Assembly (NCBI RefSeq): GCF_036373705.1
Contig: NC_089867.1
Coordinates: forward strand, 24,261,323 to 24,325,322
Length of the DNA: 64,000 bases
Source of the DNA: Amia ocellicauda
Taxonomy: Eukaryota; Chordata; Actinopteri; Amiiformes; Amiidae
Reading direction: 5' to 3'
Shown here piece after piece: positions 11,524 to 52,437 of this stretch. Each line of letters begins with the position of its first letter. Position 1 is the first letter of the stretch. The position numbers were made by a program, and so were the translations under genes. The notes below the pieces were generated by a model that worked only from the letters and a program-made list of their open reading frames with translations, was not told the origin of the DNA and made no database searches.

Positions 11524-11548
11524 ATCAATCAGCAAGATTTCTGGCTCC

Positions 11549-11635
11549 CAGGTGTCTTTTATACAGGTAACGAGCTGAGACTCTCTTAAAGGGACTCTCC
11601 TAATCTCAGCTCGTTACCTGTATAAAATACACCTG
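11549..11635. repeat. 32 bp foldback just upstream of the Tc1 transposase start
   Basis: Two 32 bp arms (11,549-11,580 and 11,604-11,635) are inverted complements with one mismatch, separated by 23 bp. A transcript could form a long hairpin in the 5' leader of the transposase message. The same structure with perfect arms occurs in the second copy at 31,545-31,632, so it is a fixed part of the family and not a chance palindrome. Confidence 0.9.
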
Positions 11636-11676
11636 TCCACAGAACAATCAATCAATCAGATTCCAAACTCTCCACC

Positions 11677-12752: not shown

Positions 12753-12907
12753 CTTTTTTGAAATGCGTTTTTCTGGATATTTTTGTTGTTATTCTGTCTC
12801 TCACTGTTAAAATACACCTACCATTAAAATTATAGACTGATCATTTCTTTGTCAGTGGGCAAACATACAAAATCAGCAGGGGATCAAATACTTTTTTCCC
12901 CTCACTG
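12705..12907. repeat. Right terminal inverted repeat of Tc1 copy 1
   Basis: Near-perfect inverted complement of 11,320-11,523, with the inner and outer direct repeats retained (the inner one reads GTC where the left arm reads ATC in complement). Confidence 0.9.
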
Positions 12908-22345: not shown

Positions 22346-25300
22346 CTAATGGCCACTCATGGTGTACTCCTGGATCATGCTCTGGAAGTAGGCTGTGGTG
22401 TTCTGCTCCGGGTGAAACAGGATGATGAAGCAGCGCTGCAGGAAGTAGCCGGCGCTGATGCCCATGAGGCTGACCAGCATGCCCGCCACCTGCAGGGCCG
22501 CTGAGATGGTGCCGCTCTCCATGAAGTGCGTGGTCAGGTATGTGATCCAGCCCACGATGAAGATGAGGGAGGAGAAGGCGATGTACTTGACCTCGCTGTA
22601 GGCCCTGGGCAGCCCCTTGCCCATGTAGGAGAGGGAGAAGGCCAGCATGGCGATCAGGAGCTTAAAGATACTGTCTGCCCACTGCTGATCCTGGTTGCAC
22701 ATGAGAATGGTGGCGTTCGAGAAGGTGTCCTCAGCCTCCATGACCTTGGGCGGAAGGCAGAGGAGCTGAGCGCCCTGGATGAGCGTGGCCAGCAGTGTGA
22801 GCCCCAGCACGGTCAGCGGGGGGCCGTGGTTCTTCACCCAGTAGCTGTAGAAGTGGGGCAGGCGGGTGGAGTACTTGAAGATGCAGAGGATCTGGATGGA
22901 CTTCACCACCATGCAGGACAGGGACACAGAGACGCATATGGAGAAGAGGGTGATCCCGACGGCACAGGAGACTTGGGTCGGACGTCTAAAGCTATAGGCC
23001 AGGATGCTGCTGTAGGCCACGATGAGCGAGACCAGCATGGCCAGGCTCATGCACCCCCCCGCCGCCCGCACCATGGGGCTCTGCCAGTGCAACAGGAAGA
23101 GCGCGGCGATGGCCACGTTGAGCAGGAGGGACGTGGACACCACGCACATCAACGCCAGCCCGGCCACGCTGTTCCAGTCCAGATACTCCGTGCTCCTCTG
23201 AAGGCAGGCCTCACTGGCTGGGGGCGCCCATTGCCCCGCCGGGCACATCTTACACGAGTACTCGTCTGTAAGACAACACGCCAGCCTCGGTCAGGTCAGA
23301 CACCACATCCCACACACACACCTGAAGAGATCTCAGCTACGTTTGAACTTGATGACAATTTGTGCATGTTTTTGAACTGCCCCTGAATAGAACATTGCAC
23401 TGTATTTTTTTCTTGATTTTACTTTACTTTAATTAGGACTGGAACATTTTTTTTTAACTTTACTGTCGTCCTTGGGTAAGGGCTTCCTCCAATAAATTAT
23501 CATGACACAATAATAATCATGTTGATTGATGGGATAATGTTACATGACTCATTACAATTACAGCACTCGGTCGGACAGTAAAACGTAAGAGAAAAACTTT
23601 CTCACAGTTGATAGTAATATGAACAATAAGCTGAGAGCTACAAATTTGCCTACATGGAAATTATGGGCCTCTGTGTCATTAATCAAATGTGTTTTTTATT
23701 ACCATCATTAAACCTGTCTAGGTTGGCTGTTAATACTGAAGAACGTTGTGTCCGACACCAGTTTGGTTGACTTGTGTGTGTGATTTATAGAGAACGTGTG
23801 ATTGCCCAGAACTGGTTGTTAGCAAACACTGCTGACAGGCTTAAGAAGTTGAATACAAGGAAGCCACAGTGACGGCTGGTGTTTAAACAGCTGCCCACAC
23901 TGGCAGCACAGTCTACCCAAACGGAAATCTTACCATATTAGCTCTCATATTCAAGCCCTGAATTTGCCTCTCATTTTATTGCTTCTTCTGTGATCTGAGC
24001 TCTCTGATGCTTATTCTGTAGATTGATATTTGTTATACAAATGTTCCACTACCTGGAAAAAATATGTACGTATACAATATAACCCGCACGTGGCGCTCAC
24101 CCGTGTAGTTGAGGTAGGTCCCCCAGGAGCAGGGATCACACAGGAAGCAGCAATGATGGGTGCCTAGGATTTTTCTCTCACCCGACCGGCACTCTTGTGA
24201 ACAGACCGACATTGGCACCTGTGGGCACAGTGTGACAAACACCATGAGGCCAGGGCACTCACACCGGCTGAGAACCGGCACGTGCACAACTTAAGTGACT
24301 AAAGTAAGCTGTTGAGAAAGAGGAAAGAGAAGCTGCATCTCGTTCAAGCTCCTGCAAAGGTATATATGTTATTGTTAGTGTACCAGATTTGTTTTTCGGT
24401 CCGAGACAACCTTAAGAACTTGTTGGAAAATAAATAAATGTCTCCACGCAGGAGCAGGCGGCTTTGTGCCGTACCTTTGATCCAAGGACCCCCCCCCAGG
24501 CAATCTCCCCCTTGTGGAGTTGCAGGTCCTTGGACCCGGTGTGGTAATGCCCCACGGTGGTCGCAGACACGGTGCCGTCACTCTTCCACACCCACGACAC
24601 CAGAGACAGCCTTGCTTCCATGGTCCCGCTAACCCCAAATTTGATAACGTGGTCCCCAATGGAGAAGTTGATTCTCTCCACGGCTTCCATCACCTGCACA
24701 CAGACAGACACACACACACAAACACACAGAAGAAAACACAAAGCTCTTTACCGAACAGAAAGGTGAAAGGCAGTGCATGATCTGGGTAACCCCCTCCCCA
24801 AGAAAGGACAAAGACGGTACTGGCACCTCTTTGGGGTAGACAGGCCCTGGGTCACAGGCAGACCTCTGGCAGCCCAGGGCGAAGTGCAGGGCCTGGGCTG
24901 CGGAGTGGACAGCCGCATACACACTGAAGGCCCCCTGCGTCCCCGTCATGTTCAGGATCTTCCCCGCATCAGAACCCTGGCAGTCAGAGGGGGAGGCTGT
25001 TGTAGAGAGTGGAGGCTGATTGGGGAGAGAGGCCTGCAAGAAATCCTGAAACCCGGGCAGACTGGTGCCCCACTCGCCCACCCCCAGCACCGTTCCTATG
25101 CTACTGGGCACCGACACCTCCTGGAAAGCGGAGGACCAGGAGCTGCTGGCCACCCACACTTTGCCTGTCACGTTCTGCTCCATGACCCCAGCGAAGAAGG
25201 CTCTCACCGTCTCCGGCTCGGCCAAGATCACGGTGACGTTGACACGGGTGTCCACAATCTTGCTGATGATCGGGCCCACCTCTGTATCGTTGATGGTACC

Positions 25301-26445
25301 GAAATATGCCACACAGATGTCCTCACCCGTGACCTGACTGTACAGAGTCCTGATGTTCTCCTGTCCGTAATTGGTCTTGCTGCCAACAATCGCCACCCAC
25401 CGCCAGCCCAGGTCCAGCAGCAAGGCCTGGATGGCAAGGAGCTGGTTCTCCATAGCTGGCACCACACTGAAGAGGGTGCGGTACCTCGCCATCAGGGTGA
25501 GCGGCACCGAATAGTAACTGATCTGTGAAATTAAGCCCAATCATACTTTAATTGATTTAATTTAAAATCTCAGTCTAATATAAATTCCATATTTTATCAG
25601 GTTATTCTATAAGTAGGAACATATTCTGTGGAGTGAGCTTATCATGTCCAGCTCATCTGGTTTAAGGCACCTGGCCTGAAAGAAAGATTCTGCGGTACAG
25701 AGGATACAATGTAAAAGACAAAGCTGCAGAAAAGAGGACTCACCACGGGGACTTGCACTATCTGGTGCAGCCCAGTCATGGCATCGTCCAGTGGCTTCAT
25801 CCCCTGTCCGATGATGGCAACGGCGTTGGGCTGCAGCTCTGAAAAGTTCCTCTGCAGGTCAAGCACTGTGGTGTCTTGTGGAGACAGGAAGTGCAGCATG
25901 GAGTGGATGCCCCAGGCGTCACTGCAGCTGTCCAGCATTCTGTAGCCCAGTCGGACATTGGGCAGCAGGGTGGTGGAGTTGTTGATCTCCTGCATAGCAA
26001 ACCTCATTGCCTCTGCCATCACAAATCCAGGCAGCATGGCACTGTGGGGAGAAAGAGAGGGCCGGTATCACAGAGTGAAGATTTCGCTCCATCACCATTA
26101 CGACCGTCTCTTCTCTATTTCAGTTTAACACAGGGATCTGAGATCCCTGCCTGAGGGAGAACCTCACAGCTTGGACGTGAGCCACTCTCCAGATTAGCTC
26201 AACAGCTGTCGGAAGTCCTGAGAAAGAGACAAGACTGAGGACAGGGAGACAGGATGGACAGTGACACACATCCAGTCTACATTGCTGCGGTCAGAGACTC
26301 ACCACTTGTCTAGATTCTTGTCTAGATGCTCAACTGGAAATATGCCTCCAATGTAGTAATCTCCCTTTGACTCAACCCAGATGTCCTCCAGCATGCTAGA
26401 GTCCACAAGGCCGAGACAAAGACAGCAGAGCGGCAGCCCCCACAT
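22346..26445 (-). CDS. tas1r2: Taste receptor type 1 member 2-like (class C GPCR), six exons
   Basis: Class C GPCR subunit of the oral T1R receptor, which pairs with T1R3; fish T1R2 proteins respond mainly to amino acids. Exons on the minus strand: 26445-26303, 26041-25744, 25522-24827, 24693-24475, 24218-24101, 23265-22346; phases 2,0,0,0,1 all agree, giving about 797 aa. Exon 1 carries a signal peptide (MWGLPLCCLCLG). Exons 2-4 form the Venus-flytrap domain (AMRFAMQEINNS, GKVWVAS). Exon 5 is the cysteine-rich linker (PMSVCSQEC, HHCCFLC). Exon 6 holds all seven helices, including LPRAYSEVKY and GYFLQRCFIILF. The C-terminus (NTTAYFQSMIQEYT) resembles T1R2 rather than T1R1 or T1R3. An in-frame Met 24 codons upstream (26,517) is possible, but the chosen Met directly precedes the signal peptide. 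It could instead belong to one of the less studied fish T1R clades; only a tree would settle this. Confidence 0.88.
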
Positions 26446-28860
26446 TATCCCCACAGGGCTGGAGGTTGAGATCACCGGTCTACTACTGCTAGTCCAGATG
26501 AAGGCAAGCAACTGCAAACAAGAAGATCCTTCCAGTGTGAAGGAGATCCTCGACTGATTCAGTGATAACGCAACCCCGGGTTTTAAGTTTTTCGATCATT
26601 ATCTACACACCTGGGACGGAAACGGACGAACCCAATGGGCGTTCCAAACACCTAAAGAGGTCATTAATATTCCTCTAATTATCACCGCAGTGTTGACAGT
26701 TCTCACCCACAAGCCCAAACCACTGGCCACATGGCTTCCTGCCCAATTCCTCGTCCCTCACCACACAGACAATCCTCGACCCCGTTCACCAGACGCCCCC
26801 CACACCACACACACAGAGTGCCTGCTGCTTACTCAGCCCATACTAGGGCTGCTGATGAAAGTTTCCATTGTCCCTAAATCAAGACATGGTTTACACCAGT
26901 CCCCCACTATCTCCCCAATCTCTTTAAGTGAAAACCCACTTTGTAGGTTGATATCATGTAATGCCTGAAAAGGAGTTTATCATTGTATTATGTTGACACA
27001 GCAGACTTGCAGAAGCTGTAATCCATGTTTTACATGATTAGATGGAAAATTACTTGTATACAGATACAGATAAAGCCAAATGAAAGACTGCGAAAGACCT
27101 TGAGAGGAGTTCCATCTGGCCAGAGAGAGGAACTTAATGGGTGGAGGGGAAATTATATGTATCTTTTACAAGTGATAAATGGTGTAACTTATTTAATGAA
27201 TATAATTGATTCAGTGCATCTGACTTTCACAGGCCATTCTGGGTCGGCACCCAGGAGGCGGAAACAGAATTAAAGTAAAGCAAAACACATGCTGGCCAAT
27301 AAGTCAATTAAGCCTCCCAGACCAGTACACGACTTACGACTTACAGAGGGTATTTCTTTATACAAAGGGTTTTGGGGAATGACTGAACGAACCCAGAAAC
27401 CAGCCTTCACACCTCCTCATTTCTAACTTTTCACTTTTTAGGAAATAACAGGATCAGCTGCTGCAGATCTACAGCAAATCCGTTGCACTACGTCCGGATC
27501 CATGCAAATGTCTCCAGATTTTTTTTTGTCGTTGCCGTCAGTCATCAGGAACACAGCGATTCATTTCAATACATTTCCCTGAGGAGGGAAGCTGGAGCTG
27601 CACAGGGGCTGTGGCCGGCTGCAGGGAAATGCTATGAAAATTGGGACACGGTCTAGGGCTGCTCGCTGAAGGACATGTATTCGAGTCTGAATGTGAACTT
27701 CTGGAGCGATGGGGATCAGATCAGGCCTTTTACTTGGAAGATCTCTTCCCCCTAGTGAGGAAACTAATTCTAGCAATAACATTAGTATCTTGTGCAAGGG
27801 TGTATCATCGTAGACCACAGCAAAACTGAGGACAAGACAGTATGACCTCTGTATTGACTTGCCTTGTCTTGACGAATCTGCTTTCTGATCCACAGAGACA
27901 CTGCACAACCTCTTGTAAACTGCAGTTTGTCCGCGCTCAGCCCCTTGAATGTCACTTAACTAAGTGCTGAAGCTGCAGCAAAATATAACACTACACAAGG
28001 AGCAGGACCACACATTTTTACCAATACATTTCTTTTTACCATGGTTCTGAAAAATATCACCAAGGACACAATTTACTTAACATTCTGGCACAAAGCCTTC
28101 TGGGAATTTTTTCACAAAGTCATACATCTGTTTATGAATCAGATTTGATAACTAATAACAGCTGCATTTTAATCCTTAAACTAGCAAATTGACCAATTAA
28201 GCACAATATATCTATCTATCTAAAGAGAAGAATTGTAGAAAAGCAACATTTTCATGATTTTCAACACAAAACTCTGATGATGAACGCGGTCGGGGTGTAT
28301 GGACCTCGGGGGCGATTTGGCCGCGTCTGTTCGGAAAGGCCCACGGAGTCGGTCACCGGTCACTCTTCCCAGGGTCACGGCCTCGATTTGAATCAGAGAC
28401 GCGAGGAGGATTTGAATTTCTACCTCCATTTAACGTAAGCAGGAACACGTCTGCAGCATGCAAAGTGACCGCCAGGATTTACATGTAATTGGAGCCGCTG
28501 TTTTCACACGTCTCGCACCGTACAGAGGATCAGCAGACATAGCCCACGGCAGCTCGCCAGCATGACACATTACAGCCCCGGTTATCAGCAGATGAATTAA
28601 CCGCAGTGCCAGCCACCTTTATGGGCACTGTGTTTGATTCTTTCGTGATTTTCAGCCCCAATCGAGACCAACGTCCTATTAAGTCTTACCCCCTTCTGCC
28701 CCATTTCTGTGGCCCTTGGTCGGAACATACTTTGTCAAAGTTTGTATGCCATCGCTTATAACTATGTAGCTCCAATGTATCAGTTTTCCTACTGTAAAAC
28801 TGGAAAAACACCGCACAAGTGGTGGCACAATCTTCTAAGAGTACCTAGAGGCAGATAACT

Positions 28861-28885
28861 ATATATATATATATATATATATATA
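28861..28885. repeat. (AT)n microsatellite
   Basis: Pure AT dinucleotide run ending in AAATAT. Confidence 0.9.
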
Positions 28886-29514
28886 AATATTGTTAATGGT
28901 TTAACTGTACACAGTTGCTAGGTCCAGTGAGTGTCGTGCGTTCAGGCCTGGTGACTGTGTTTGATGATGTCCAGTTTGTTTGTAGGTGACACCTGAACTT
29001 TCCACAACTTTCTACTACTCATTACTGGACAAAAGCATGGAGTTCATTCCTCCCCTGTTTACACCAAGCGCAGACCCTCTCCCAAATTCTGCAACGGCAT
29101 ACAGGTATAACAGCAAGGTCTGCTGCACTGAGAAAGAAGCAGAAAAAAGAAAACTATGCAAAGCAAGAGCCAGTGTGAGAGAACTCTTTATCATTAAGGC
29201 ATGCCTCATTTCCATAGGCAGTTTTATTTTCACATTACTACTATATCCCGGGCTCCCTGTAAGCATGTGAGCGTGCAGAACCGCTGATTTGAGTATCCTG
29301 CTCTGGGCTACCTGTTTGGAAAGAGAGGGCACCTGGAGAGAGACAAAGGGAGGGAGAGGGAGAGAGGGAGGGAGACAGAGAGAGAGAAGGAGGCACTCTG
29401 CTCGGCTGGCTGGACGTCTCTGCTCTCTCTGACCTTGGGAGAAACCAGGCAACAGGGATTGGTGCTCTTGGACTGGGTCTGTCTGCCTGCAGCTGCATCT
29501 ATCATCTAAACAAG

Positions 29515-29929
29515 GTAGGTCTGTCTGCATCGCTTTCTCGGCCACTCTGGAGCTGTATCTGTTGTTCTTGGACCTCTCTATGTATCCTGACTGGGCTTAC
29601 TTCATCTGTTCAACCCCTGCCTTCCTTCTCCCCTCCTCAGGTGCTCTCTCCCTCTCTCTCTATCAAACTGACCTAATCCCCCCACTTCCCCTTCAACCCC
29701 CAGTCTCTCCCTCCACCACAGGTCAGTTATCTAACCTTTCTCCACCCGTCTCTCTCTCTCCTCCCTCCCTGACAGTGTGTCCATTTATGTCCCTGCACTC
29801 ATGAAGAGCATAAGAAATAAATGAAGTCACTATGTCTCTTCCCCTTCTTCCCCTCTTCCACCTGATTTGCTTCACCTTGTCCCCTTCTTCAATGAAGGCA
29901 CATCTCCCCTCTCTGTCCCTCTCACACAG
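29515..29929 (+). other. Candidate intron in the tas1r3 5' untranslated region
   Basis: A good donor (ACAAG/GTAGGT) ends at 29,514. After a pyrimidine-rich stretch, a good acceptor (CTCTCACACAG) ends at 29,929, only 12 bases before the tas1r3 start codon. This suggests a non-coding first exon ending at 29,514. Its 5' end cannot be placed. Confidence 0.45.
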
Positions 29930-29941
29930 CGGTCAGTGAGA

Positions 29942-32900
29942 ATGCAGTGGGTGTTGAGGATGCTGCTGTTGAGCAGCGTTCTCAGTCCCGGCCACGCTGA
30001 GGACGGCTTCCCAGCGTGGTTTAAAAACATCTCCACCGACCTGTTTTGGTCCAAAGGGGACATCATGCTGGGGGGGATCTTTCCCATCAATGAACTCGGC
30101 AACTCCAGCTCGAGCCAGCGGGAGCAGCCCGACGACGTACACTGCGACAGGTAACCACTCACCTGCCCATGCCGACAGCTCCAGGGAAGGGGGTCTGGCA
30201 GTCTTCAGACCTGACCACATGTCAGTAAACCTCAAGCGTGCCACCCTAAGCCCTAAACAGATTCCTACTGCTGGAACAATTAAAAAATGTGGGGGAAAAA
30301 AGTATTTGATCCCCTGCTGATTTTGTACGTTTGCCCACTGACAAAGAAATGATCAGTCTATCATTTTAATGGTAGGTGTATTTTAACAGTGAGAGACAGA
30401 ATAACAACAACAAAAATCCAGAAAAACGCATTTCAAAAAAGTTATACATTGATTTGCATGTTAATGAGGGAAATAAGTATTTGACCCCTTCGACTTAGTA
30501 CTTGTGGCAAAACCCTTTCATGGCAATCACAGAGGTCAGACGTTTCTTGTAGTTGGCCACCAGGTTTACACACATCTCAGAGGGATTTTGTCCCACTCCT
30601 CTTTGCAGATCCTCTCCAAGTCATTAAGGTTTCGAGGCTGACGTTTGGCAACTCGAACCTTCAGCTCCTTCCACAGATTTTCTATGGGATTAAGGTCTGG
30701 AGACTGGCTAGGCCACTCCAGGACCTTAATGTGCTTCTTCTTGAGCCACTCCTTTGTTGCCTTGGCTGTGTGTTTTGGGTCATTGTCATGCTGGAATACC
30801 AATCCACGACCCATTTTCAATGCCCTGGCTGAGGGAAGGAGGTTCTCACCCAAGATCTGACGGTACATGGCCCCATCCATCGTCCCTTTGATGCGGTGCA
30901 GTTGTCCTGTCCCCTTAGCAGAAAAACACCCCCAAAGCATAATGTTTCCACCTCCATGTTTGACGGTGGGGATGGTGTTCTTGGGGTCATTCCTCCTCCT
31001 CCAAACACAGCGAGTTGAGTTGATGCCAAAGAGCTCGATTTTGGTCTCATCTGACCACAACACTTTCACCCAGTTCACCATTCAGATGTTGGCAAACTTC
31101 AGACGGGCCTGTACATGTGCTTTCTTGAGCAGGGGAACCTTGCGGGCGCTGCAGGATTTCAGTCCTTCATGGCGTAGTGTGTTAGTGTGTTACCAATTGT
31201 TTTCTTGGTGACTATGGTCCCAGCTGCCTTGAGATCATTAACAAGATCCTCCCGTGTAGTTCTGGGCTGATTCCTCACCGTTCTCATGATCATTGAAACT
31301 CCACAAGGTGAGATCTTGCATGGAGCCCCAGACCGAGGGAGACTGACAGTTATTTTGCGTTTCTTCCATTTGCGAATAATCACACCAACTGTTGTCACCT
31401 TCTCACCAAGCTGCTTGGCGATGCTCTTGTAGCCCATTCCAGCCTTGTGTAGGTCTACAATCTTGTCCCTGACATCCATGGACAGCTCTTTGGTCTTGGC
31501 CATGGTGGAGAGTTTGGAATCTGATTGATTGATTGTTCTGTGGACAGGTGTCTTTTATACAGGTAACGAGCTGAGATTAGGAGCACTCCCTTTAAGAGAG
31601 TCTCAGCTCGTTACCTGTATAAAAGACACCTGGGAGCCAGAAATCTTGCTGATTGATAGGGGATCAAATACTTATTTCCCTCATTAACATGAAAATCAAT
31701 TTATAACTTTTTTGAAATGCGTTTTTCTGGATTTTTTTGCTGTTATTCTGTCTCTCACTGTCAGTGGGCAAAATCAGCAGGGGATCAAATACTTTTTTCC
31801 CCCACTGTACATAGTAGACATGCTTTTTATGTTCGTGTTTTTAAAATAAAAACATTCTATAAAATGCCTGCTGCTTCAAATACCAAGATGCTGATGTAGA
31901 AGCAGTGTGAAAAGCTTGGGGTTTTCATTTAGTAGACTGTTGTCAATGAGAGGGGACAAACCCAACCATATTTTTTTGTTTGTTGGTTTTAAATGAGCAT
32001 ATGGTTCACCTCAATGTGGAAGCGGGCGAGTTCTGAAAACATTAGATTTCCTTAATGATGCTCTGGTTGATATAAGACATACAGACGGGTGACAAATTCA
32101 ATGAAAAACCTGAATGAATGAGTGGAGGAACATAACGAATGCAGATGCCTCCAAACAGGTGTACTGCATGGTACAATTAAGCAATTAACATCCGGTCACG
32201 CTCTATGGCATGTATACAAATGCTGAGCAGGCACAGTTGACCTCAATTTTGGACCAAGATGGCAAGAGGAAAGGATCTAAGTGCCTGTGAAAGATGGGTC
32301 ATTATTGGGGCACGAATGGCAGGAGCTTCAGTTACACAGATACTCAACTGGCTCGTGTTCTGGACAAGTGGGTGAGTGCATGTGTGGGACACCAAGAGAA
32401 CGGGACAGGCCTGACTGCTGGACCCCTACAGTGAGGGGGTCCAGAGGCTCTATTATGCTGTGGGGGGCATTTTCCTGGCATGCTTTGGGTCCACTTGTCC
32501 CCTTAGAGGGAAGGGTCACTGCAAATCATTACACAGTTATTCTGAGTGATCACCTCTATCCTGATGGGAGTGGTCTCTTACAGGATGACAATGCCCCATC
32601 CACAGGGCACGAGGTCTCACTGAATGGTCTGACGAATATGAAAATGATGTGACTCATATGCTATGGCCTTCGCAGTCACCAGATCTCAACCCAGTTGAAC
32701 ACCTATGGGACACATTCAGGATCAGATTTTCAGATCAGTTGGTAAATTATTTACTTGTTAAACCAGCAGTGTAGGATGTTTTGAGCTTGTTGTCGATGTG
32801 CGCGGTGTTCTTGTCCCCGCTCTGTGTGGGCGTCACTGTTGACTGATGACTGAATTGCACTCACGCTGTGTTCCGGGGGCATGTTGTGGTCTGCAGCTCG

Positions 32901-35079
32901 ACCCATCATAATTCATGCTCTCGCCACGGTCGTCTCCGCTCCCAGAGCGCTGTAACCCTGTCTCCCCCGATGGCAGGGTCCTGTCCTACGGCGTGAGCCA
33001 GGTGCTGGTGATGAAGTTTGCAGTGGACGAGATCAACTCCTCTCCCCTCGTGCTCCCTGATACCAGTCTGGGCTTCGAAATCTATGACTCGTGCCGACAG
33101 CCCTCGGTCATCATGCAGCCGGCCATGCTGTTCCTGAGCGAGGGGAAGTCCCAAAGCATTCGTGTGCTGTGCAATTACACGGGCTACAGCACACGCGTGG
33201 CGGCTGTCATCGGGCCCTCCACCTCCGAGATGGTCTCCATCACGGGCAAACTCTTCAGCTTCTTCCTCATGCCACAGGTAGGCATAGCCACATAAGTTTC
33301 TCAGCAACACTCCCAAGCACAGCATCTGGGCAACACTGAATTCCTCCGACCACTGTCATGCTGTTACACCTCCACAACAACAGCTCCACAGCCCAAGGTC
33401 ATTGCCCGATCCCCTGACTAGGCAGAGGACAGTAACAGATGAGCCCCTGGAGAACTGACCACAGTCCTGAAAGGCTTGGCTTTTTCCTTCCCTCTTGCAG
33501 ATCAGCTACTCAGCCACGAGCGACAAGTTCAGCGACAAGAAGCAGTTCCCGTCCTTCCTGCGCACCGTGCCCAGTGACCGGCGCCAGGCCGAGGCCATGG
33601 TGCAGCTGGTGCTGCGGTTCGAATGGAACTGGATCGCGGTGGTGGGCAGCGAGGATGAGTACGGCAAACAGGGCCTGCGGCAGTTCTCGTTGCTGGCCAG
33701 CCAGCAGTCCATCTGCATCGCCTACGAGGCCTTGATCCCTGTCTACACCTCCTCGAAGGCCACCATCAAGGACATCCTGCAACGCATCAACCAGACCGAC
33801 GTGGGCGTGGTGGTGCTGTTTGCCCTGCCCAGTGCGGCCATGGACTTCTTCTCTATGGTGAGTGAGCCCAGGACCGCCGCTCCAGTGGGCTCTGACACTG
33901 TAATCAGGGATAGCAGAGACACAAAATATTGGTTGCTGGTTTATAAAACGAGAGTTACACAAAATTAATTGAATTCTGAGAGCCATTATTGGCAGAGCAC
34001 TTTTCTGACAAAGGAAAGCAGGGTGACGAAAACAGTCAGTTTGTACCCTGATACATTTGTGCCACTCTCTAAAATTCTGCTGTGTTCTGTGACGAGGTGT
34101 CAACTCTCTCTGCACCGAGAGAGCGATGGCTCCGCTTCTCAGGAACTGTGGTTTTGTCTACTTTCTGCAGGTGATCAGCAGTAAGATGCAGAAGGTGTGG
34201 GTGGGCAGCACCGCCTGGGCCCTGGACAAGAATTTAGTCTCCATGGAGGGCATCCGAACGGTGGGCACAGTGCTGGCCTTCGCCGATAGGAACCAGAAGC
34301 TGGAGCTCTTCGAGAACTACACCTACGCCTTCTTATCCCGGCTGGAGCGCGAGCAGCTCAACGGCACCTCCAATGCCAACAGCACCAAAACTGTGGACTT
34401 CCCCTTGGCTGATCCTTGTCCCTCCTGCCGGGGCCTGACTCTGCAGAACATATCCATGGCCACGGATGCCCGGCTGCAGCGCACAGCCTTCAGCGTGTAC
34501 ACGGCGGTCTACAGCGTGGCCCACGCCCTGCACAAGCTGCTCAAGTGCAACCAAACACGCTGCCTGAAGAAGGGCTCGGTGCTCTATTCCTGGCAGGTTA
34601 GTACCGTCCTGACCTGAGTTTAAGATGGCTACCTGCCTTTTCACAGATGAGACACTTTAAAAATGACAAAGATGTGCTGAGCTTGAATCGGTAGGTGGTC
34701 TTGTTCTAAAAGGAGACACCAAGCCAACCTCCTGTGTACAGGACAGCTTGATGTGCCTGCCTGCCCCCACACTGTCCTCTCTGTGTCGTTTCAATGAGGC
34801 GTGAGCATAACCTCCCCCTGCTCTCATCCCCCTTTAAAGCTGCTGGAAGTGCTGAAGACCATTTCTTTTGACATCAATGGCACTCAGTTCAAGTTCAACG
34901 AAGAGGGGAACCCCAGCATCGGGTACACGGTGCTCACATGGATATGGGGCAAAGACCAGGTCGAATTCCAGGACATCGGCAGCTATGTGGAAAAGTTGGA
35001 ACTGAAGAAGGAGCTCATCAAGTGGCATCAGAGCACGTCTAATGAGGTACGCCTGCTGCTTTAAGGCTAGGACCTCATT

Positions 35080-35142
<63 letters not shown>

Positions 35143-37926
35143 AACTGCACCGTCTTTGGCTAATGTATTCCATCTCCCTAAATAACGTGTGATGCAGTTG
35201 CTAGTGTCCAATATGTTGTGAACCTGCCACTATTTCACAGTGATCCACCCAAAGCCAGGGTAAGAGTGGAAGTGCTGACAACTATCACCTTATCCTTGTC
35301 CTTTGTGAACTCATTCTTGCTGTCATTATTGCTGTGATTACCACACCGTATGTCCCTTGTCCTGTCCTGTCCCCTCCCCTGTGGGGCTGCTCTGTCCTCA
35401 GGTCCCAAAGTCCACCTGCTCTGCCAACTGTCAAACTGGCCAGGTGCGCCGAGTGAAAGGATTCCACTCCTGCTGCTTTGACTGCATTGACTGCAATGAG
35501 GGGACTTTCCAGAACCGCACAGGTGGGTCAGCGGCTTTGCACCCACCACCCGTCACATGCACATTCTTACCCTGCTCGCTTTCCCCTCTCTGTGTTTCTC
35601 TCTCCATCTAACTCTCCATCCCTCTTGCTCCCCCTCTCACCTGCCAGAGGACTTCCAGTGCACAGACTGTCCGGTCGGCCAGTGGTCGACCCCGCGGAGC
35701 AACCAGTGCATAGATCCCACCTTCCACTACCTGGAGTGGAATCAGAACGAGTCCCTGGGGCTGGTGCTGGGCGCGGTGGTGGTGCTGGCCTGCCATGCGG
35801 CCGTGGGGTGGCTGTTCCTACGGCACTGGGGGTCCCCGCTGGTGTGCGCCTCGGGGGGGAGTCTCAGCGCCCTGGCCCTGCTCAGCCTGTCGGGGGGGTG
35901 TGCCAGCCTCTCCCTCTTTCTGGGCCAGCCGGGGGACGTGGTGTGCCGTCTGCAGCAGCCCCTCAATGCCATCTTCCCCACCTTCGCCCTCGCCACTGTC
36001 CTGGCCATCTCACTGCAGGTATGAGACTGGAGCCGCTCCACGCGATGAAGCTGGGAGCAGACATGGGGGTACAAATGTTATTGCAATGCTCTTCAAATAC
36101 TTACAAGACTGTGTTTCAGGTGAGTATGAACAGGGTGTGAGGGAAGAAGGGGCAGCACAACACAATCTTAAAAGTATTTGAAGAGCACCGCAAAGGCATT
36201 TGACTCCATGTCGGGCTGTGAGGTGTCATGTAAGTCTTCCACAACTGTTTCTGTAGGCAGTTTAAACATTTTGCTTTTGGATCTTGTCACATCTGGAGTT
36301 TTCTTGCTCTAAAACGTATTCTAGCACCCTGGGTTTGCAGCACTTATTCTTCAAACAAATTCCTGATATTCGAAAAACATCAGGACACTGGGAAAATGAG
36401 CTTAAGTGACTCAGGTCACTTTTATTATGTTGTGTGATCTGATTTCACATGGTGGTGAAAGTTTTATGTGTGTAACTCTACATCTGTTGACAGGTTCATG
36501 TTGATGAGATTGGTATTCGCCAAAGTATACACTAATTGAAAGTTAATAGCTGACAGTCTGACTTGTACAAGAACAACAACATACACTAAAGCAGGGGTCT
36601 CCAACCCTGGTCCTGGAGAGCCCCAATCCAGTTTATCTTATAGGTCACCCTAAAGCACCAATTTCTAAATCCTAGGAACACATGTGAGTTATTAATCAAT
36701 TAAGCAAATCAACCAAGGGAGCTCTTGCTCAGAGAGGCTGCAGGTATTCTGATAATTGCTTCAATGGTTTCTAAATTACTGAATTTACCAAACCACAGCT
36801 TCACTGATCTGACTGAAATACTTCCAGGTGTTTATAAATTGGCAATAGAAGGGTGACCTCCAAAATCTGCTGGATAGGGACACTCCAGGACCAGGGTTGG
36901 AGACCCCTGCACTAAAGAAATCGGGTGTAAACAGTGTAATTTAGGGTTTCCTTTCTTTTCTTCTAGTCCAGCAATTCAGTAACTCTATATTCAGTATAAT
37001 TTAGGTCTGGAGCAAATCAGAACTTGGACCTACCTGCAAATCATGACATAACCTATTGTGCTTGTATTAATAAGAAGTGGAAAGTGACTTCTTATAATAC
37101 ATTTAGCCCAGACTGGAAACAGGTTTATAATGTGCGATTCGTGGGTTGGTCAAAGTTTTGATTTGGTCTGGGCCTAAACAATAACAAAGAACATGTTAGT
37201 GGGCCAGTCCAGTCAAACCCCCCCGGGAGTTTCTCAGCGCTGGGCTGCGAGTAGCGATATGTCATTAACGGCTGGCATTGCCTCGCCCGCTCCTTCCCCC
37301 CCTGGCAGGTGATCTACGTGACGGAGTTCCCCGGGGCCACCCCCTCGAGGCTGGAGTCCCTGCGTGGGTTGGGCAGCTGGCTGGTGGTGCTGGCAGTGTG
37401 CAGCGTGCAGGCCGGGCTGTGCGGCTGGTTCGTGGAAGAGGGGCAACCCCACTCCCAGTACGTGGCCAGAATGAAGGTCAACTTTGTGGAGAGCTTCCTG
37501 CGATGCGAGGTGGAGCCCATGGTCGGCTTCGGTCTGATGTACGGCTTCAACGGGCTGCTGGCTCTCGTCTCCTTCATGTGCACTTTCATGGCGCAAAAGC
37601 CAGCCAAGCAGTACAACCTGGCACGGGACATCACTTTCTCCACCCTGGCCTACTGCGTGGTGTGGGTGGTCTTCATCCCCATCTACACCGGCCTGCAGGA
37701 GAAGACCAAGTCCCTGGCCCAGATGGCAGCCATCTTGCTCAGCAATCTAGGGCTGCTGGCCGCCTACTTCTTCCCCAAGTGCCACCTGCTGCTGACCACC
37801 CCCGACCTCAACACACTAGACTACTTCCGCACATACCTAGAGGGCGCCCCCCTAAAACAGGAGGACAGTCAGGAGAACCAGGGTGACCAGGGGGGAGCAA
37901 ATGGGCAGGGGGCCCAAGAGAAGTAG
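29942..37926 (+). CDS. tas1r3: Taste receptor type 1 member 3 (class C GPCR), eight exons
   Basis: Common subunit of T1R heterodimers, at the taste-cell membrane. Exons: 29942-30150, about 32946-33277, 33501-33857, 34171-34596, 34840-35046, 35402-35522, 35648-36018, 37309-37926; about 879 aa. Exon 1 has a signal peptide and GGIFPINE. The Venus-flytrap domain carries [19 protein letters not shown] and [15 protein letters not shown]. The cysteine-rich linker [16 protein letters not shown] is nearly identical to what I know of T1R3 in other vertebrates. The seven-helix domain starts near [12 protein letters not shown] and ends [17 protein letters not shown], followed by a Gln/Asn/Gly-rich tail as in mammalian T1R3. 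Two introns, after DFFSM and after TVLAISLQ, are extra to the six-exon plan of the neighbouring T1R. Exon 1 ends in phase 2 at its best donor but no AG fits that phase at exon 2, so the first junction is uncertain. Confidence 0.92.
30566..31503 (-). pseudogene. Tc1-family transposase, multiply broken
   Basis: Reading on the minus strand, 31,503-31,159 is the DNA-binding half (114 aa) and 31,081-30,566 the catalytic half with the three DDE acidic residues still present. It shares the 8-base ACACACTA duplication of copy 1. It adds a deletion near 31,075-31,090 and a one-base loss near 30,585 that truncates the C-terminus. It cannot encode an active enzyme. Confidence 0.92.
31545..31632. repeat. 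Foldback of Tc1 copy 2
   Basis: Perfect inverted arms of about 32 bp around a 24 bp loop, equivalent to 11,549-11,635 in copy 1. Confidence 0.88.
32259..32740 (+). pseudogene. Fossil transposase of a second Tc1-like subfamily, in tas1r3 intron 1
   Basis: Starts ATGGCAAGAGGAAAGGATCT ([11 protein letters not shown]...) and continues to [17 protein letters not shown], a Tc1-family catalytic motif. In between are [11 protein letters not shown] and [13 protein letters not shown], the region of the second catalytic Asp. The reading frame changes at least twice and the stretch is far too short for a 340-residue transposase, so an internal deletion has removed most of the N-terminal half. The sequence differs strongly from the two other Tc1 copies, so it is a separate, older insertion. 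Terminal repeats were not identified. Confidence 0.82.
35081..35140. repeat. (CA)n microsatellite in tas1r3 intron 5
   Basis: Thirty uninterrupted CA units only 35 bp downstream of a splice donor (35,047). Confidence 0.97.
36087..36187. repeat. Inverted repeat in the last tas1r3 intron
   Basis: A 16 bp perfect inverted repeat (36,087-36,102 and 36,172-36,187, TGCTCTTCAAATACTT), extendable to about 22 bp with two mismatches, with a 69 bp loop. Possibly the remnant of a small foldback transposon. Confidence 0.75.
36592..36909. mobile_element. Non-autonomous hAT-like element in the last tas1r3 intron
   Basis: 318 bp with terminal inverted repeats starting CAGGGGTCTCCAACCCTGGT at both ends. It is flanked by a perfect 8 bp target duplication, CACTAAAG (36,584-36,591 and 36,910-36,917). 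An 8 bp duplication and CAGGG-type ends fit hAT miniature elements common in fish genomes. It has no coding capacity. Confidence 0.9.
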
Positions 37927-38098: not shown

Positions 38099-38104
38099 AA
38101 TAAA
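38099..38104 (+). terminator. Candidate tas1r3 polyadenylation signal
   Basis: First AATAAA after the tas1r3 stop codon, about 170 bases downstream, which would give a short 3' UTR. Confidence 0.6.
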
Positions 38105-38639
38105 TGCCTCCACAAACAAATGTAATGCTGAGTTGATATTTTGCCTGCTGTGAGGAACTATGTCAGCTACTGTCGGATTCTCACGAGGGCCCTGTGAAAA
38201 GTTTGAGAGAGTGAGAGATCAAATATTCAAATATTTTGTTGTTAGAAATAATGCTTATTAGTTGTGTTTGGGTTTGTTTCTGTTTGGTTTACAATGCTTC
38301 TGTGCTATCCTATACCTAGTTAGGCTTCCCGCAAGGTTTCTCCTCAGTGTAATACACAGGAGACACATTTATTATTTAATCTAGTATAAAATAAAATAAT
38401 CGTAAGCCACAGACCAAGTGTGTGTCGTTGCTCAAAACCACAAATCATATCTTTCCAAAATATCTTGTGGCTAGTTCTAGTACTACACTTGTTTTTCATT
38501 GTAAAATGAGTAGCATTATTACAGTCTAGATTCAACACAAAGGATTAATAACACGTTTCCTTGCTCTGGCAATATTCAGAGAGACTGACTGCAGCGTCTG
38601 TCCTCAGGCAAACTACATGCAGGCTATTGAGTGACAGGT

Positions 38640-38800
38640 GCAGAGATGGTCCCGCCTCCCGGGCTAGCGATTGGCTGCCCAAATGCTCCTGGAGACGGTT
38701 GCTAAAAACTTCTCTGCAAAGTAAACAAGGCAGTAAAGTGCAGCTCTGCCGGACCCGGGCTGCCGCAGTACAGCGAGCACAGCTTAATCCTCGCAGACAG
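38640..38800 (+). promoter_or_regulatory. Candidate odad1 promoter and non-coding first exon
   Basis: Contains an inverted CCAAT box (ATTGG at 38,670-38,674), an RFX-like half site (GTTGCT near 38,699) and a perfect forkhead motif GTAAACA at 38,721-38,727. A strong donor (GCAGACAG/GTAATA) ends at 38,800 and can splice to the acceptor before 39,914, giving a 5' untranslated exon. FOXJ1 and RFX factors are the known activators of motile cilium genes, so the motif set fits the gene downstream. Motifs this short also occur by chance. Confidence 0.5.
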
Positions 38801-39657
38801 GTAATAAAACGCGTTATTGCCTTTATTTCCGCTGTTGCGTCTATAAATACAATTGCACGCCAGTCAAGGCCTCCAAAAAACACTGGCAACAAAGTAGCGC
38901 AGATTGGCTACTTTGCAATGCGCTGTAAATCACCAGAAATAAACCTGGATTGTGTGTGAGCGGTAAATAGATTCAAAACTGCAGTTTACACGTTTGTACT
39001 TTTCTCTTGGCTGCTGTCCACCACGAATACGTGTGTTTTGTTTCAATTGTTTGATTAAAAACATGTTAATTGCGCTATGCAGCAACATGCTACATATTAG
39101 TTACACAAGCTTTTCCAAGAGACACAATGTAATCTGTATATCATGTTATAATCCCTCTTATCTGTGTGTTATAATGTGCTGTTTACTGTGACCCCTGACG
39201 TGCTGTGTTGTTCTTTATCTCAATGATGTGGACATTAACGATCGCAGATATAGACTTGCTATGGTAGACGGGTATTAAGCCATACAATAAAACAACGACA
39301 CGTTTGATTGCTTTGCCGTGCATGTAATCAAAATAATGTTGATATTGTTTGAATTTACAGCTGGAGAAAACAATACTGTATTACTTGGCACGACTTACTG
39401 AGCAAAGTACTGTTATAATCCAGACTGATGCAAAATAAATTAATAATACATTAACCAAGTGATATAGAGTATATTTTTACACAATAGGTCGTGGCATAAC
39501 TATATAGACATTGCATTTGCTTTTTCCACTACAAAATATAGGAGAAAATGTTTGGCTACGAATTGTTATTAACTTGCTTTATTTGGTTATCTCTGTAATT
39601 ACCAGTAGAGGGCATTTTAAATGTACTGCTCTCTAACACCGAGACACCTATCTGTAG

Positions 39658-39716
39658 GAACATGTCAGAAACAAATCCTACTAAATTATCCGATCAGACG
39701 CAAACAAAACAAGCAG
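39658..39716 (+). other. Candidate alternative 5' exon with a short upstream ORF
   Basis: A 59 bp segment bounded by an acceptor (CTATCTGTAG) and a donor (AAGCAG/GTACGT). It opens with an ATG at 39,662. Spliced to 39,914, this frame would stop after 23 codons, out of frame with the main start, so it would act as an upstream ORF. Use of this exon is only inferred. Confidence 0.35.
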
Positions 39717-39935
39717 GTACGTAATTATCTATTTCTATTAAGTGTCTGTTGAGCACTCAGTAAAGTCCACAACGCCCTCTGCCGAGTATCTCCGGTACTG
39801 CAGTGGCCTGCCTTTTATAGCGCCTTGCTAATGGCTCAGTAGGGTTTAGTCTTCCCTTCATCTCTCTCCCCCTCTCCCTCTCTCCCTCTCTCCCTCTGTT
39901 CTCTGGTCTATAGACAGTAAGGGACAGTGACGACG

Positions 39936-42900
39936 ATGCCCCGGGGACGATCAGCCACTAGTGTCCACTCAGACAGCAGTGAGATGGACATTGACGGAAT
40001 CGGTAGGTGATTGGCACAGGATAGACACCCGACTGAATACGAAACACGTTTTGCTAGTATTTCTAAGAATTCCTGCCTGATTTGTATACATTTTATTGTA
40101 GTCATCTGTATTTTACGAAGCTTTTTAATTCACAATGACAGAAATGCATTCACACAATTCATGATACACAGTTCATGAATCATATGGCCAAACACCAAAA
40201 ATAAAACGCCCTATCATTCTGCCCTGTTACAGTGAAAGACCGCACAGTGGGGTCTGTGTCTTTGTTAAATCAGCTTTGTTCAGTGAGAGCGGGGGGTAAT
40301 TCTATTCGGATAACCGAGCCCTGGCTGCTTCATTCTGCAGAAGTGCTGCACTTTTTTTCCCCTCAGTGATACAGTGATTATTTAACTCATTTATGTGGGC
40401 GGACTTAAGTATGTTCATCAGACAGAAGGTTCGAACACAGAACGGCAGGACCACAGTCTATTGGTTTGCGTTGCAGCAGAGTCAGAGCTGGCGAAGCTAC
40501 AGAGACAGTTTCGCATCATGGAGGGGGATCGGCAGGCCTATGGGGTCGAGTCCCAGGACTTAATTAACCGGCAGCTGTAAGTCTCCCCACTGCTTCCTCA
40601 TCCTCACAGCCTCCTCCACACTGCCTCCTCCTCCTCACTGCCTCCTCCCCACTTTCCCCAGCGCTGTGCAGCAGCAGCACCTCCAGTGCAGCTTCAAGCA
40701 GTTCACAGCATCCTCGGTCAGATATGTTATGATTTTAGCGATTCTAAGAAAGGGTCCCAAATTTAGTCTCTTCAGTGTGTCTATACATGTTGTTTTGCCA
40801 CCCCCAAAACAACCGAAATTAATTTCTGACTTTCTAAAAAGACTTTTAAAAATTGCACAAAAATCACACAACAGCACTGTACAGAACACGCATCAGTTAG
40901 GAAACTCAGAAAACAGTTAACAGAGACCCTCAAGTGATACAGGGCTGTGTGGGTAACTTTGTGTGTGTGTGTGTGTGTCTCTCTGTGCGTGTGTCTCTCT
41001 GTGCGCGTCTCTCTGTCCGCATGTGTCTCTCTGTGTGCGTGGGTCTCTCTGTGTGTGTGTGTCTCTCTGTGCGTGTGTCTCTCTGTGCGCGTCTCTCTGT
41101 GTGCGTGGGTCTCTCTGTGTGTGTGCGTCTCTCTGTGTGTGTGCATCTCCCTGTGCGCGCGTGTCTCTGTGTGCGTGGGTCTCTCTGTGTGTGTGCGTCT
41201 CTCTGTGTGCGTGGGTCTCTCTGTGTGTGTGCGTCTCTCTGTGTGTGTGCATCTCCCTGTGCGCGCGTGTCTCTGTGTGCGTGGGTCTCTCTGTGTGTGT
41301 GCGTCTCTCTGTGTGCGTGGGTCTCTCTGTGTGTGTGCGTCTCTCTGTCCGCATGTGTCTCTCTGCGTGTGTGTCTCTCTGCGTGTGTGTCTCTCTGTGT
41401 GCGTCTCTCTGTCCGCATGTGTCTCTCTGTCCGCATGTGTCTCTCTGTGTGCGTGGGTCTCTCTGTCCGCATGTGTCTCTCTGTCCGCATGTGTCTCTCT
41501 GTGTGCGTGGGTCTCTCTGTGTGTGTGCGTCTCTCTGTGTGTGTGCATCTCCCTGTGCGCGCGTGTCTCTGTGTGCGTGGGTCTCTCTGTGTGTGTGCGT
41601 CTCTCTGTGTGCGTGGGTCTCTCTGTGTGTGTGCGTCTCTCTGTGTGTGTGCATCTCCCTGTGCGCGCGTGTCTCTGTGTGCGTGGGTCTCTCTGTGTGT
41701 GTGCGTCTCTCTGTGTGCGTGGGTCTCTCTGTGTGTGTGCGTCTCTCTGTCCGCATGTGTCTCTCTGCGTGTGTGTCTCTCTGCGTGTGTGTCTCTCTGT
41801 GTGCGTGGGTCTCTCTGTGTGTGTGCGTCTCTCTGTGTGCGTGGGTCTCTCTGTGTGTGTGCATCTCCCTGTGCGCGCGTGTCTCTCTGCGTGTGTGTCT
41901 CTCTGTGTGCGTGGGTCTCTCTGTGTGTGTGCGTCTCTCTGTCCGCATGTGTCTCTCTGTGTGCGTGGGTCTCTCTGTGTGTGTGCGTCTCTCTGTGTGC
42001 GTGGGTCTCTCTGTGTGTGTGCATCTCCCTGTGCGCGCGTGTCTCTCTGCGTGTGTGTCTCTCTGTGCGTGTGCGTGCGCATGTCTCTCTGTGCGCGCGT
42101 GTCTCTCTGTGCGCGCATGTCTCTCTGTGCGCGCGTGTCTCTGTGCGTGTGTGTCTCTCTGTGCGTGTGCGTGTGCATGCACATGCGGTGCAGGGCGGAG
42201 ATCGAGAAGCTGCAGCAGGACCAGGAGGAGCTGCAGAGGAGCCTGCGTGTGTCCGAGAGCCGCGCCCATCGCAAGCGGGACCAGGGGGTCACCCAGAGCC
42301 TGCAGGCGGCGCTGGAGCACAAACAGCAGGTGGAGGAGCAGCTGAGGGCCGAGAAACTCTGCGTGGTCCAGCTGGAACAGGAGGTACCCCCGACCACCCC
42401 AGCACCGGACCCCCGATTACACACAGCACCACGCTGATGATAACACACAACAGACTTCTCCCCCTAGGGGACAGTCTCTGTTGGGGTTCCTTAACGTGTG
42501 TTCCCTCTGTAACAGATCGCCGACCTGGAGCGGAAGCTGTCCAATCAGAGGCGGGGGGGTGGCAGTGCCACACGGAGCCAGAAACCCCCGGCCCGGAAGA
42601 CCCAGAAAGCCTGCCGCACCCTGGAGAACAAACTGGAGCGGGTGAGCTCCCTCCGGGACAATGTCTGTGTTTGGTTCGTCACAACGGGGACCCGTATGAT
42701 TGTGACGGTGACTTCTGGACACGTATGTGCCAGCGACTGGTCTGGCATAAAGCACGCATTAAACGCACACGTTCCATTCCCTCTGTCTTTGCAGGCCCTG
42801 ACGCGGTTCAACGAGCAGCTGACCAAGAACGGCAACTTGCGGGAGGAGCTGGACACGCTGTGGGGGGAGCAGGCCAGGTTCCAGCAGCTGTTCCGCAGAC

Positions 42901-45900: not shown

Positions 45901-46118
45901 ACATGTTACCTTCAGAGAAATATGTCAGCCACATAAAACAGTAGTAGTGTAGTAGTGATAGTGGTAACACAACACTGAGTCTCAGTCCATTAAAAGTGCC
46001 CCCCCGCCCCTAGGTGTTGCGCAAGGAGAAGGCCGTTCATCCCGACGGAGGGAAGGAGGTCAAAGCCTCCAAGACCAGCGTGGCATCCAACAGCAAGAGG
46101 CGCTCCCAGGAGGCCTGA
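39936..46118 (+). CDS. odad1: Outer dynein arm docking complex subunit 1 (coiled-coil), 14 coding exons
   Basis: Axonemal coiled-coil protein that anchors outer dynein arms on doublet microtubules of motile cilia. Coding exons: 39936-40002, 40480-40576, 42194-42383, 42516-42641, 42795-42908, 43126-43193, 43297-43484, 43856-43990, 44131-44213, 44327-44495, 44685-44848, 44954-45057, 45373-45463, 46014-46118. All phases agree, giving about 566 aa. The N-terminus MPRGRSATSVHSDSS followed by LAKLQRQFRIMEGDRQAY is typical of ODAD1/CCDC63. Almost the whole protein to about residue 480 is heptad-rich coiled coil (AEIEKLQQDQEEL, DLDILVKGFIEVEDRNFALF). A more acidic and then basic tail follows and ends KRRSQEA. 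Exon 2 has tandem acceptors three bases apart. The exon 7 acceptor (TGTGTCAAG) has a poor pyrimidine tract. The paralogue ccdc63 is the main alternative. Confidence 0.78.
40960..42190. repeat. Higher-order GT/CT-rich tandem array filling odad1 intron 2
   Basis: About 1.2 kb made of short modules such as GTGTGCGTGGGTCTCTCT, GTGTGTGTGCGTCTCTCT, GTCCGCATGTGTCTCTCT and GTGCATCTCCCTGTGCGCGC. Module order is itself repeated: a block near 41,249-41,400 recurs about 400 bp later near 41,650-41,800. The array lacks stop codons in several frames on both strands, producing spurious frames of 360-670 codons. It makes up about three quarters of the 1.6 kb intron and ends right at the exon 3 acceptor. Confidence 0.95.
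42966..43057. repeat. Foldback element in odad1 intron 5
   Basis: Arms of 18 bp are perfect inverted complements (42,981-42,998 and 43,026-43,043, CGGGCTGGTAAAATAACG) and extend outward to about 32 bp with a few mismatches. The loop is 27 bp. It could be a miniature palindromic transposon; no target duplication is obvious. Confidence 0.85.
45262..45365. repeat. (GT)n-rich tract before odad1 exon 13
   Basis: Interrupted GT repeat occupying the position of the polypyrimidine tract; only GGTTTCAG directly precedes the exon at 45,373. Confidence 0.9.
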
Positions 46119-46346
46119 CTCCACGTCCCGGGACACCTCCCGCTGGCTCGCCCTCGCCACGCAGAACCGGACCGCCATCTGCACAGCACGGACGGGTCTG
46201 TGACTCTCCGAACCCCAACCAGCGTCTCGCGAATACTTTAAATTGTGTACATTTATTGTGTTTCTTTGCAATAACAAAAAGGGACATTTGCTTTTCTACC
46301 ACAGAGCAGAGGCTGCAGATGAAAGATCGGTGTTTTTACTCAGGTA

Positions 46347-46557
46347 CAGGGGTTCCCAAAGTGTGGCCTCAAGGAGGTTTGGTGTGGCTCCCCAAACCCA
46401 ACATTTTTAAGTTACAAATTAACAATTAAAGTTAATAAATGTTCCCTAACAGAAATGTATAGGAAATAAAATCGGTGGATCATTTTCTACTGCGGCCCCC
46501 CCATCCCATACAACCTCGGGAAATTGGCCCCCCATCACCAGACATTGGGAACCCCTG
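46347..46557. mobile_element. Short hAT-like element in the odad1 3' flank
   Basis: 211 bp with perfect 13 bp terminal inverted repeats (CAGGGGTTCCCAA). The flanking 8-mers CTCAGGTA (46,339-46,346) and CTCTGGTA (46,558-46,565) match at 7 of 8 bases, as expected for an aged hAT target duplication. Non-coding. Confidence 0.85.
46425..46470 (+). terminator. Cluster of polyadenylation hexamers for odad1 inside the hAT-like element
   Basis: ATTAAA at 46,425, AATAAA at 46,434 and AATAAA at 46,465. No AATAAA or ATTAAA occurs between the odad1 stop (46,118) and the element, so odad1 transcripts would be expected to end using these signals. Confidence 0.5.

Positions 46558-52406: not shown

Positions 52407-52437
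<31 letters not shown>

Follow-up and report, generated by a model that had tools for sequence, protein, structure and literature searches.

T1R2-type genes beside T1R3 genes have been described outside the teleosts. Nishihara et al. (2023, PMC10781636) found TAS1R2A adjoining TAS1R3B in bichir and axolotl and interpreted the two as belonging to an ancestral T1R cluster. According to the same source, the distances from human TAS1R1 are 12 Mb to TAS1R2A and 5 Mb to TAS1R3A, and the zebrafish TAS1R2B genes and TAS1R3B are found on different chromosomes. In ray-finned fishes, exon 3 of TAS1R3B acquired an intron, and in those other than bichir exon 6 acquired another, which resulted in eight exons (PMC10781636). 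For most fishes, work on T1R3 loci lists SLC45A1, prothymosin alpha and CCDC114 on the upstream side of the gene, and it describes ERRFI1 as “always next to” T1R3 (PMC5931979).

A head-to-head pair of T1R genes

We analyzed a 64,000-nucleotide stretch of the Amia ocellicauda genome (“the window”, by which we mean this whole stretch) and found a T1R2-like gene on the minus strand and a T1R3 gene on the plus strand, arranged head to head with transcription pointing outward (Table 1). A first-pass annotation had proposed such a pair with about 3.5 kb between the start codons. Our gene models bear this out: the reading frames terminate at 22346 and 37926, and the two ATGs are 3,497 bp apart (29942 − 26445). 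The accompanying remark that the human T1R genes are not adjacent agrees with their published spacing of megabases (PMC10781636), which contrasts with the adjacency seen here.

Both coding models were fitted by hand, using reading frame, splice sites and homology. The coding sequences are 2,394 nt (minus strand) and 2,610 nt (plus strand) long, each with a single, terminal stop codon, and all 12 introns (5 in the minus-strand gene and 7 in the plus-strand gene) are of the GT-AG type. The exon 3 donor of the minus-strand gene is weak (GTGCCA), and its position was set by homology. For exon 2 of the plus-strand gene, the candidate starts 32946 and 32948 were dropped because they give the wrong frame; 32977 is in frame and aligns with human T1R3. 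Both proteins contain the Pfam domains ANF_receptor, NCD3G and 7tm_3 above the curated cut-offs, and they resemble the human TAS1R2/TAS1R3 sweet receptor in domain layout and in their best full-length solved-structure matches. The minus-strand protein carries this class C GPCR domain set in six exons, features that are common to other T1Rs too.

Searching with both proteins (tblastn) revealed no third T1R in the window, the best match outside the pair having an E-value of 0.44 for the minus-strand query and 0.69 for the plus-strand query. Scans of the whole window against Rfam, at gathering thresholds, and for tRNAs returned 0 matches each. No relatives were confirmed among viral and prokaryote contigs, as expected of an animal gene.

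Table 1. Features of the T1R locus and its surroundings (positions within the window)
Feature	Position	Strand	Details and evidence
T1R2-like gene (probable TAS1R2A), coding span	22346–26445	−	6 exons, 797 aa; gene model, Pfam, TAS1R2 best solved-structure match
Exons of the minus-strand gene	26303–26445, 25744–26041, 24827–25522, 24475–24693, 24101–24218, 22346–23265	−	hand-fitted model
Exon 6 of the minus-strand gene: end of cysteine-rich domain, seven-helix domain, C-terminus	22346–23265	−	gene model, Pfam
Exons 2–3 of the minus-strand gene with intron 25523–25743: bulk of ligand-binding domain	24827–26041	−	alignment
tas1r3 (TAS1R3B), coding span	29942–37926	+	8 exons, 869 aa; gene model, T1R3 chains best matches
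Exons of the plus-strand gene	29942–30150, 32977–33277, 33501–33857, 34171–34596, 34840–35046, 35402–35522, 35648–36018, 37309–37926	+	hand-fitted model
T1R3 intron dividing ancestral exon 3	33858–34170	+	gene model; published mark of ray-finned TAS1R3B (PMC10781636)
T1R3 intron dividing ancestral exon 6	36019–37308	+	gene model; published mark of non-bichir ray-finned TAS1R3B (PMC10781636)
Interval between the ATGs (3,496 bp)	26446–29941		composition, motif and Pfam scans
ATGCAAAT octamer in the interval	27502–27509		motif scan
CpG-richer stretch in the interval	28201–28600		observed/expected 1.02, GC 0.495
TA repeat in the interval	28860–28890		
GA-rich repeat in the interval	29335–29393		
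CCDC114/ODAD1-like coiled-coil gene, pieces; next gene seen after T1R3	43292–44959	+	ODAD1_CC 5.9e-28
Gfo/Idh/MocA-family oxidoreductase, exons	55295–63592	−	joined pieces weakly match YjhC and other family chains

Comparison with described T1R loci

The locus resembles those of bichir and axolotl in that a T1R2-type gene lies directly beside TAS1R3B. Since this adjacency is already published for both (Nishihara et al. 2023, PMC10781636), the pair adds another example to an arrangement already on record. It differs from the bichir and axolotl cluster in its flanks: DVL1 and MXRA8, which flank that cluster, were not seen here in the scanned stretches, whereas a CCDC114/ODAD1-like gene is present. 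It further differs from bichir in that its T1R3 has eight exons, the non-bichir form (PMC10781636). Among the literature matches listed, none reports T1R genes lying head to head; the figures of PMC10781636 may already show how the bichir and axolotl genes are oriented. The fish T1R3 loci of PMC5931979 share with the present locus the eight coding exons and, if the CCDC114/ODAD1-like gene is indeed CCDC114, this neighbor. They differ in that the available text mentions no T1R2 neighbor, that CCDC114 is “upstream” there and the CCDC114-like gene is on the 3' side of T1R3 here, and that ERRFI1 adjoins T1R3 there, whereas we found no Pfam trace of it in the stretches scanned.

The CCDC114/ODAD1-like gene lies about 5 kb past T1R3. 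When its pieces were compared with solved structures, the CCDC114 chain 7rro_H1 was the best of 5 matches (1.4e-09), and a CCDC63 chain also matched. The Pfam scan covered six frames in 1–21999, 38101–53099, 26446–29941 and 30151–32978, and a single strand in 53000–63000 (plus) and 53999–63999 (minus). Domains of DVL1 and MXRA8 were not found in the frames scanned; a scan of this kind can miss short exons, and the two genes may lie beyond the ends of the window. The CCDC114-like gene would be a neighbor typical of fish T1R3, and the DVL1/MXRA8 setting of the ancestral cluster was not seen within the window. The first-pass suggestion that the pair preserves an ancestral T1R cluster is thus borne out in part: the adjacency is that of bichir and axolotl (PMC10781636), but the DVL1/MXRA8 flanks were not seen in the scanned stretches. 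For the oxidoreductase at 55–63 kb, the name DHDH was considered and dropped; the joined exon pieces match four Gfo/Idh/MocA-type chains weakly (best, 1.1e-06).

Several transposon-like sequences were also observed. Intron 1 of T1R3 harbors a Tc1/Sleeping Beauty-like transposon (30412–31736) with 77-nt inverted arms (96% complementary) and a minus-strand transposase, as well as a plus-strand DDE_3 transposase-like fragment (32592–32723) scoring 27.4 bits, just under the cut-off of 28.6. A second Tc1/Sleeping Beauty-like element (11317–12910) has plus-strand transposase domains in two frames and 205-nt inverted arms (96% complementary). Intron 7 of T1R3 contains an inverted repeat (36591–36910) with 61-nt arms, 85% complementary, possibly a small non-autonomous element.

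Identity of the two genes

Judging from its sequence, the plus-strand gene is a T1R3, of the TAS1R3B type, and the earlier label tas1r3 is supported by structure matches, trees and exon structure alike. Among the best 60 of 178 solved-structure matches to the full-length protein, five T1R3 sequences scored 642–657 bits, compared with 391–395 bits for T1R2 sequences. Its ligand-binding domain matched the T1R3 chain 9xpj_B with 526.2 bits, medaka T1r3 (5x2m_B) with 484.8 bits and human T1R3 with about 377–380 bits, and it is 50.0% identical to medaka T1r3 over 268 ligand-binding positions. The protein fell within the T1R3 clade in two trees. Support was 98/97 in the ligand-binding tree, whose ten rows came from the PDB or the window; there, the medaka and 9xpj_B rows paired at 98/97 with the plus-strand gene outside, which is compatible with, but no proof of, a fish beyond the main teleost groups. 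Support was 100/100 in the six-row tree of the cysteine-rich and membrane regions, in which one row was a provisional sequence. The gene carries both extra introns, those dividing ancestral exons 3 and 6.

The minus-strand gene is, on the evidence of the trees, on the T1R1/T1R2 side of the family: in the cysteine-rich and membrane region, its protein grouped with human T1R2 and a provisional human T1R1 sequence against T1R3 (100/100). In every tree built here, the fork between T1R2 and T1R1 was unsplit for this gene, whose ligand-binding branch is very long (2.53 versus a median of 1.17). Two of the reference rows, human T1R1 and fish T1R2B, were provisional sequences from outside the databases, the fish row being flagged for its odd composition, and the comparison rows included no ray-finned TAS1R2A.

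Within this side, the sequence leans slightly toward human T1R2. Full-length TAS1R2 scored 461.9 bits against the minus-strand protein and the next molecule, T1R3, 312.2 bits, among the best 60 of 96 solved-structure matches, which contained no full-length T1R1 or fish T1R2. Tree paths from the minus-strand gene were 1.95 to human T1R2, 2.15 to the provisional fish T1R2B and 2.21 to the provisional human T1R1, and the residues it shares with one row only numbered 30 for human T1R2, 22 for the provisional T1R1 and 19 for the provisional fish T1R2B. Counting against this lean are 22 residues found in the minus-strand protein and both provisional rows and absent from T1R2 (the other two pairings gave 16 and 13). 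The first-pass label “tas1r2-like” therefore holds as far as the best solved-structure match and the T1R1/T1R2 side are concerned, but the trees do not part T1R2 from T1R1.

Published clade distributions narrow the choice. Neopterygians and sterlets are reported to have no TAS1R4, and TAS1R5, 6, 7 and 8 are reported from other groups only (PMC10781636), which leaves TAS1R1, TAS1R2A and TAS1R2B as neopterygian candidates. The published text has TAS1R2A retained in bowfin. Other studies report that teleosts lost T1R2 and name an extra ray-finned clade T1R1B (PMC10869828), and that fish T1R2 is closer to tetrapod T1R1 than to T1R2 in whole or membrane sequence, with two T1R2 genes of spotted gar in a cluster of their own (PMC7594079, PMC7014666). 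The lean to T1R2, the place beside T1R3B and the published clade distribution together make TAS1R2A the best name for the minus-strand gene, and probably the right one.

A less likely reading, though one to be taken seriously, is that the gene is a copy of TAS1R1 or TAS1R2B that has diverged, or a member of another T1R clade, and that it came to lie beside T1R3 secondarily. In the cysteine-rich and membrane region, its identities to human T1R2, T1R1 and fish T1R2B are nearly equal (37.4%, 36.7% and 36.5%, the last two with provisional rows), and the 22 residues above speak for the same reading. So do the ligand-binding identities, which differ little between rows and peak at 31.6% for both fish T1R1 and medaka T1r3, compared with 30.3% for human T1R2, 28.6% for medaka T1r2a, 27.6% for CaSR and 27.7–31.6% for the T1R3s. 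However, TAS1R2 leads the next molecule by 150 bits among those best 60 of 96 matches, and the Ser anchors of the amino-acid-sensing T1r1 and T1r2a are missing from the protein (see below). Moreover, T1R1 has 7 exons in zebrafish and grass carp, though 6 in medaka (PMC5931979), and adjacency to TAS1R3B is what TAS1R2A shows in bichir and axolotl (PMC10781636).

Ligand-binding residues of the minus-strand protein

In medaka T1r2a, Ser142 and Ser165 hold the amino and carboxyl groups of the ligand, and water-mediated contacts are made via Asp288 and Asp289. T1r1 and the majority of class C receptors retain both Ser residues, and replacing Ser165 with Ala or with Ile, the human T1r2 residue, caused the amino-acid response to be lost or weakened (PMC5457512). 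We inspected these sites in a nine-row alignment, in which the medaka numbering agrees with the site spacing in the chain letters. In the minus-strand protein, K130 takes the place of Ser142, where the other 8 rows have Ser; V153 that of Ser165, where human T1R2 has Ile and the other 7 rows have Ser or Thr; and S273/S274 that of Asp288/Asp289. The last change is not special by itself, as medaka T1r3 likewise has Ser at both sites. The pair resembles medaka T1r2a/T1r3 in that the plus-strand gene is of the same T1R3 type, and differs from it in that the minus-strand protein has no T1r2a anchor residue. At the two positions corresponding to Ser142 and Ser165, the plus-strand T1R3 carries a Ser and a Thr. 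With human T1R2, the minus-strand protein shares a branched hydrophobic residue in the position of Ser165, Val replacing the human Ile. Two residues that human T1R2 keeps, the Ser corresponding to Ser142 and a Glu (E302) corresponding to Asp289, are gone here.

In this alignment, the minus-strand protein thus has neither the Ser residues (Ser142/Ser165 sites) nor the acid (Asp288/Asp289 sites) of amino-acid-sensing T1Rs. Given K130, V153 and S273/S274, it is predicted to lack the usual binding of L-amino acids. It would then be no ordinary amino-acid receptor, like bichir T1R2A, which together with T1R3B responded to none of the tastants tried (PMC10781636).

Rates of change differed between the two halves of the protein. 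The ratio of the minus-strand branch to the human T1R2 branch was 1.54 in the ligand-binding domain (5–95% range, 1.11–2.54) and 0.96 in the cysteine-rich and membrane regions (0.60–1.33), computed from the same five PDB-derived or window rows with 40 resamples; the two ranges overlap. This suggests, without proving it, that faster change is confined to the sensing half. We also observed that a loop late in the ligand-binding domain (24827–25522) is shortened and keeps 1 of the 3 human T1R2 cysteines located there.

Could the minus-strand gene be decaying, still open but with its ligand-binding domain under relaxed constraint? The long ligand-binding branch, the shortened loops, the weak exon 3 donor and the altered anchor residues would fit. 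Yet 797 codons are open across six exons, all three domains are present, and the membrane half has evolved no faster than that of human T1R2 (0.96 versus 1.54 for the ligand-binding domain, with overlapping ranges), and we regard decay as very improbable.

The interval between the start codons

The interval between the two ATGs contained no Pfam domain in six frames (26446–29941). A long minus-strand open reading frame at 29015–29596 was rejected as a gene since it appeared by eye to be of low complexity. In 200-bp steps, GC content never exceeded 0.545, and the CpG observed/expected ratio stayed at or below 0.75, except for 1.09 at 28201–28400 and 0.88 at 28401–28600. These two steps together reach 1.02, compared with 0.55 for the whole window, and are the most promoter-like spot of the interval, with a GC content under the classic CpG island level.

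The interval includes one ATGCAAAT octamer, where about 0.13 would be expected (the window figure scaled by length). Across the window there are 6 such octamers, compared with 2.37 expected by shuffling, and 4 of 100 shuffles reached 6. As half of them (11485, 12735 and 30452) lie inside Tc1-like element arms, chance copies appear to be common. The octamer was reported upstream of TAS1R4, and the other novel TAS1Rs reportedly showed no such sites (PMC10781636). Immediately 5' of both ATGs we found splice-acceptor-like sequences, which make 5' noncoding exons possible, so that transcription may start elsewhere.

One reading of the divergent orientation, with 3,497 bp from ATG to ATG, is that both genes are under bidirectional control from one region, as the first-pass annotation also suggested, so that the two subunits are made in the same taste cells and selection for this preserves the head-to-head order. 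The CpG-richer stretch in mid-interval and the single octamer would fit it, as would the report that bichir T1R2A and T1R3B are each expressed in subsets of taste-receptor cells (PMC10781636). However, the CpG-richer stretch has a GC content of just 0.495, within an interval in which no 200-bp step exceeds 0.545; octamers are common by chance, and none of the other novel TAS1Rs was reported to have Oct sites (PMC10781636); and the acceptor-like sequences may place the true transcription starts elsewhere. T1R3 must also partner T1R1 and T1R2B, and the double labelling described for bichir comprises T1R1/T1R3B, T1R2B/T1R3B and T1R8/T1R4, not T1R2A/T1R3B (PMC10781636). We consider shared control unlikely; separate promoters for the two oppositely oriented genes seem the better reading.

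Discussion

The explanation we favor, with somewhat better than even confidence in the whole, is that two genes are left here of the T1R cluster of ancestral jawed vertebrates: TAS1R3B and, beside it, a gene of the T1R2 type that is most likely TAS1R2A, with separate promoters and a heterodimer partner whose ligand-binding half is altered. The gene structures, their orientation, the identity of T1R3 and the residues at the anchor sites are shown by the sequence; in this explanation, we infer the clade of the minus-strand gene, the separate promoters, the heterodimer and the class of ligand. T1R3B would be the subunit shared among the animal's T1R heterodimers, and the minus-strand gene would supply one partner, having kept its signaling half and changed its ligand-binding half. 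The two products may join as a T1R2/T1R3 heterodimer. Owing to the changed ligand-binding half, the pair, if formed, would be expected to lack the usual response to L-amino acids. What is new at this locus are the anchor-site changes in the minus-strand protein and, possibly, the faster evolution of its ligand-binding half.

A bolder and quite unlikely idea is that, in ray-finned fishes other than teleosts, a single region directs the co-expression of TAS1R2A and TAS1R3B, whose products form a third nutrient receptor, for neither L-amino acids nor sugars. If true, it would explain both the silent bichir T1R2A and what teleosts gave up when they lost TAS1R2A.

On the reading we favor, that of a cluster remnant with separate promoters, the pair would add a ray-finned case with a CCDC114-like neighbor to the evidence for a single original vertebrate T1R cluster, and such a case would help to date the breakup of that cluster. 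The unusual T1R2-type subunit is the most testable part of the finding, and its changed ligand-binding domain opens the way to a direct test of what an orphan fish T1R2A subunit may sense.
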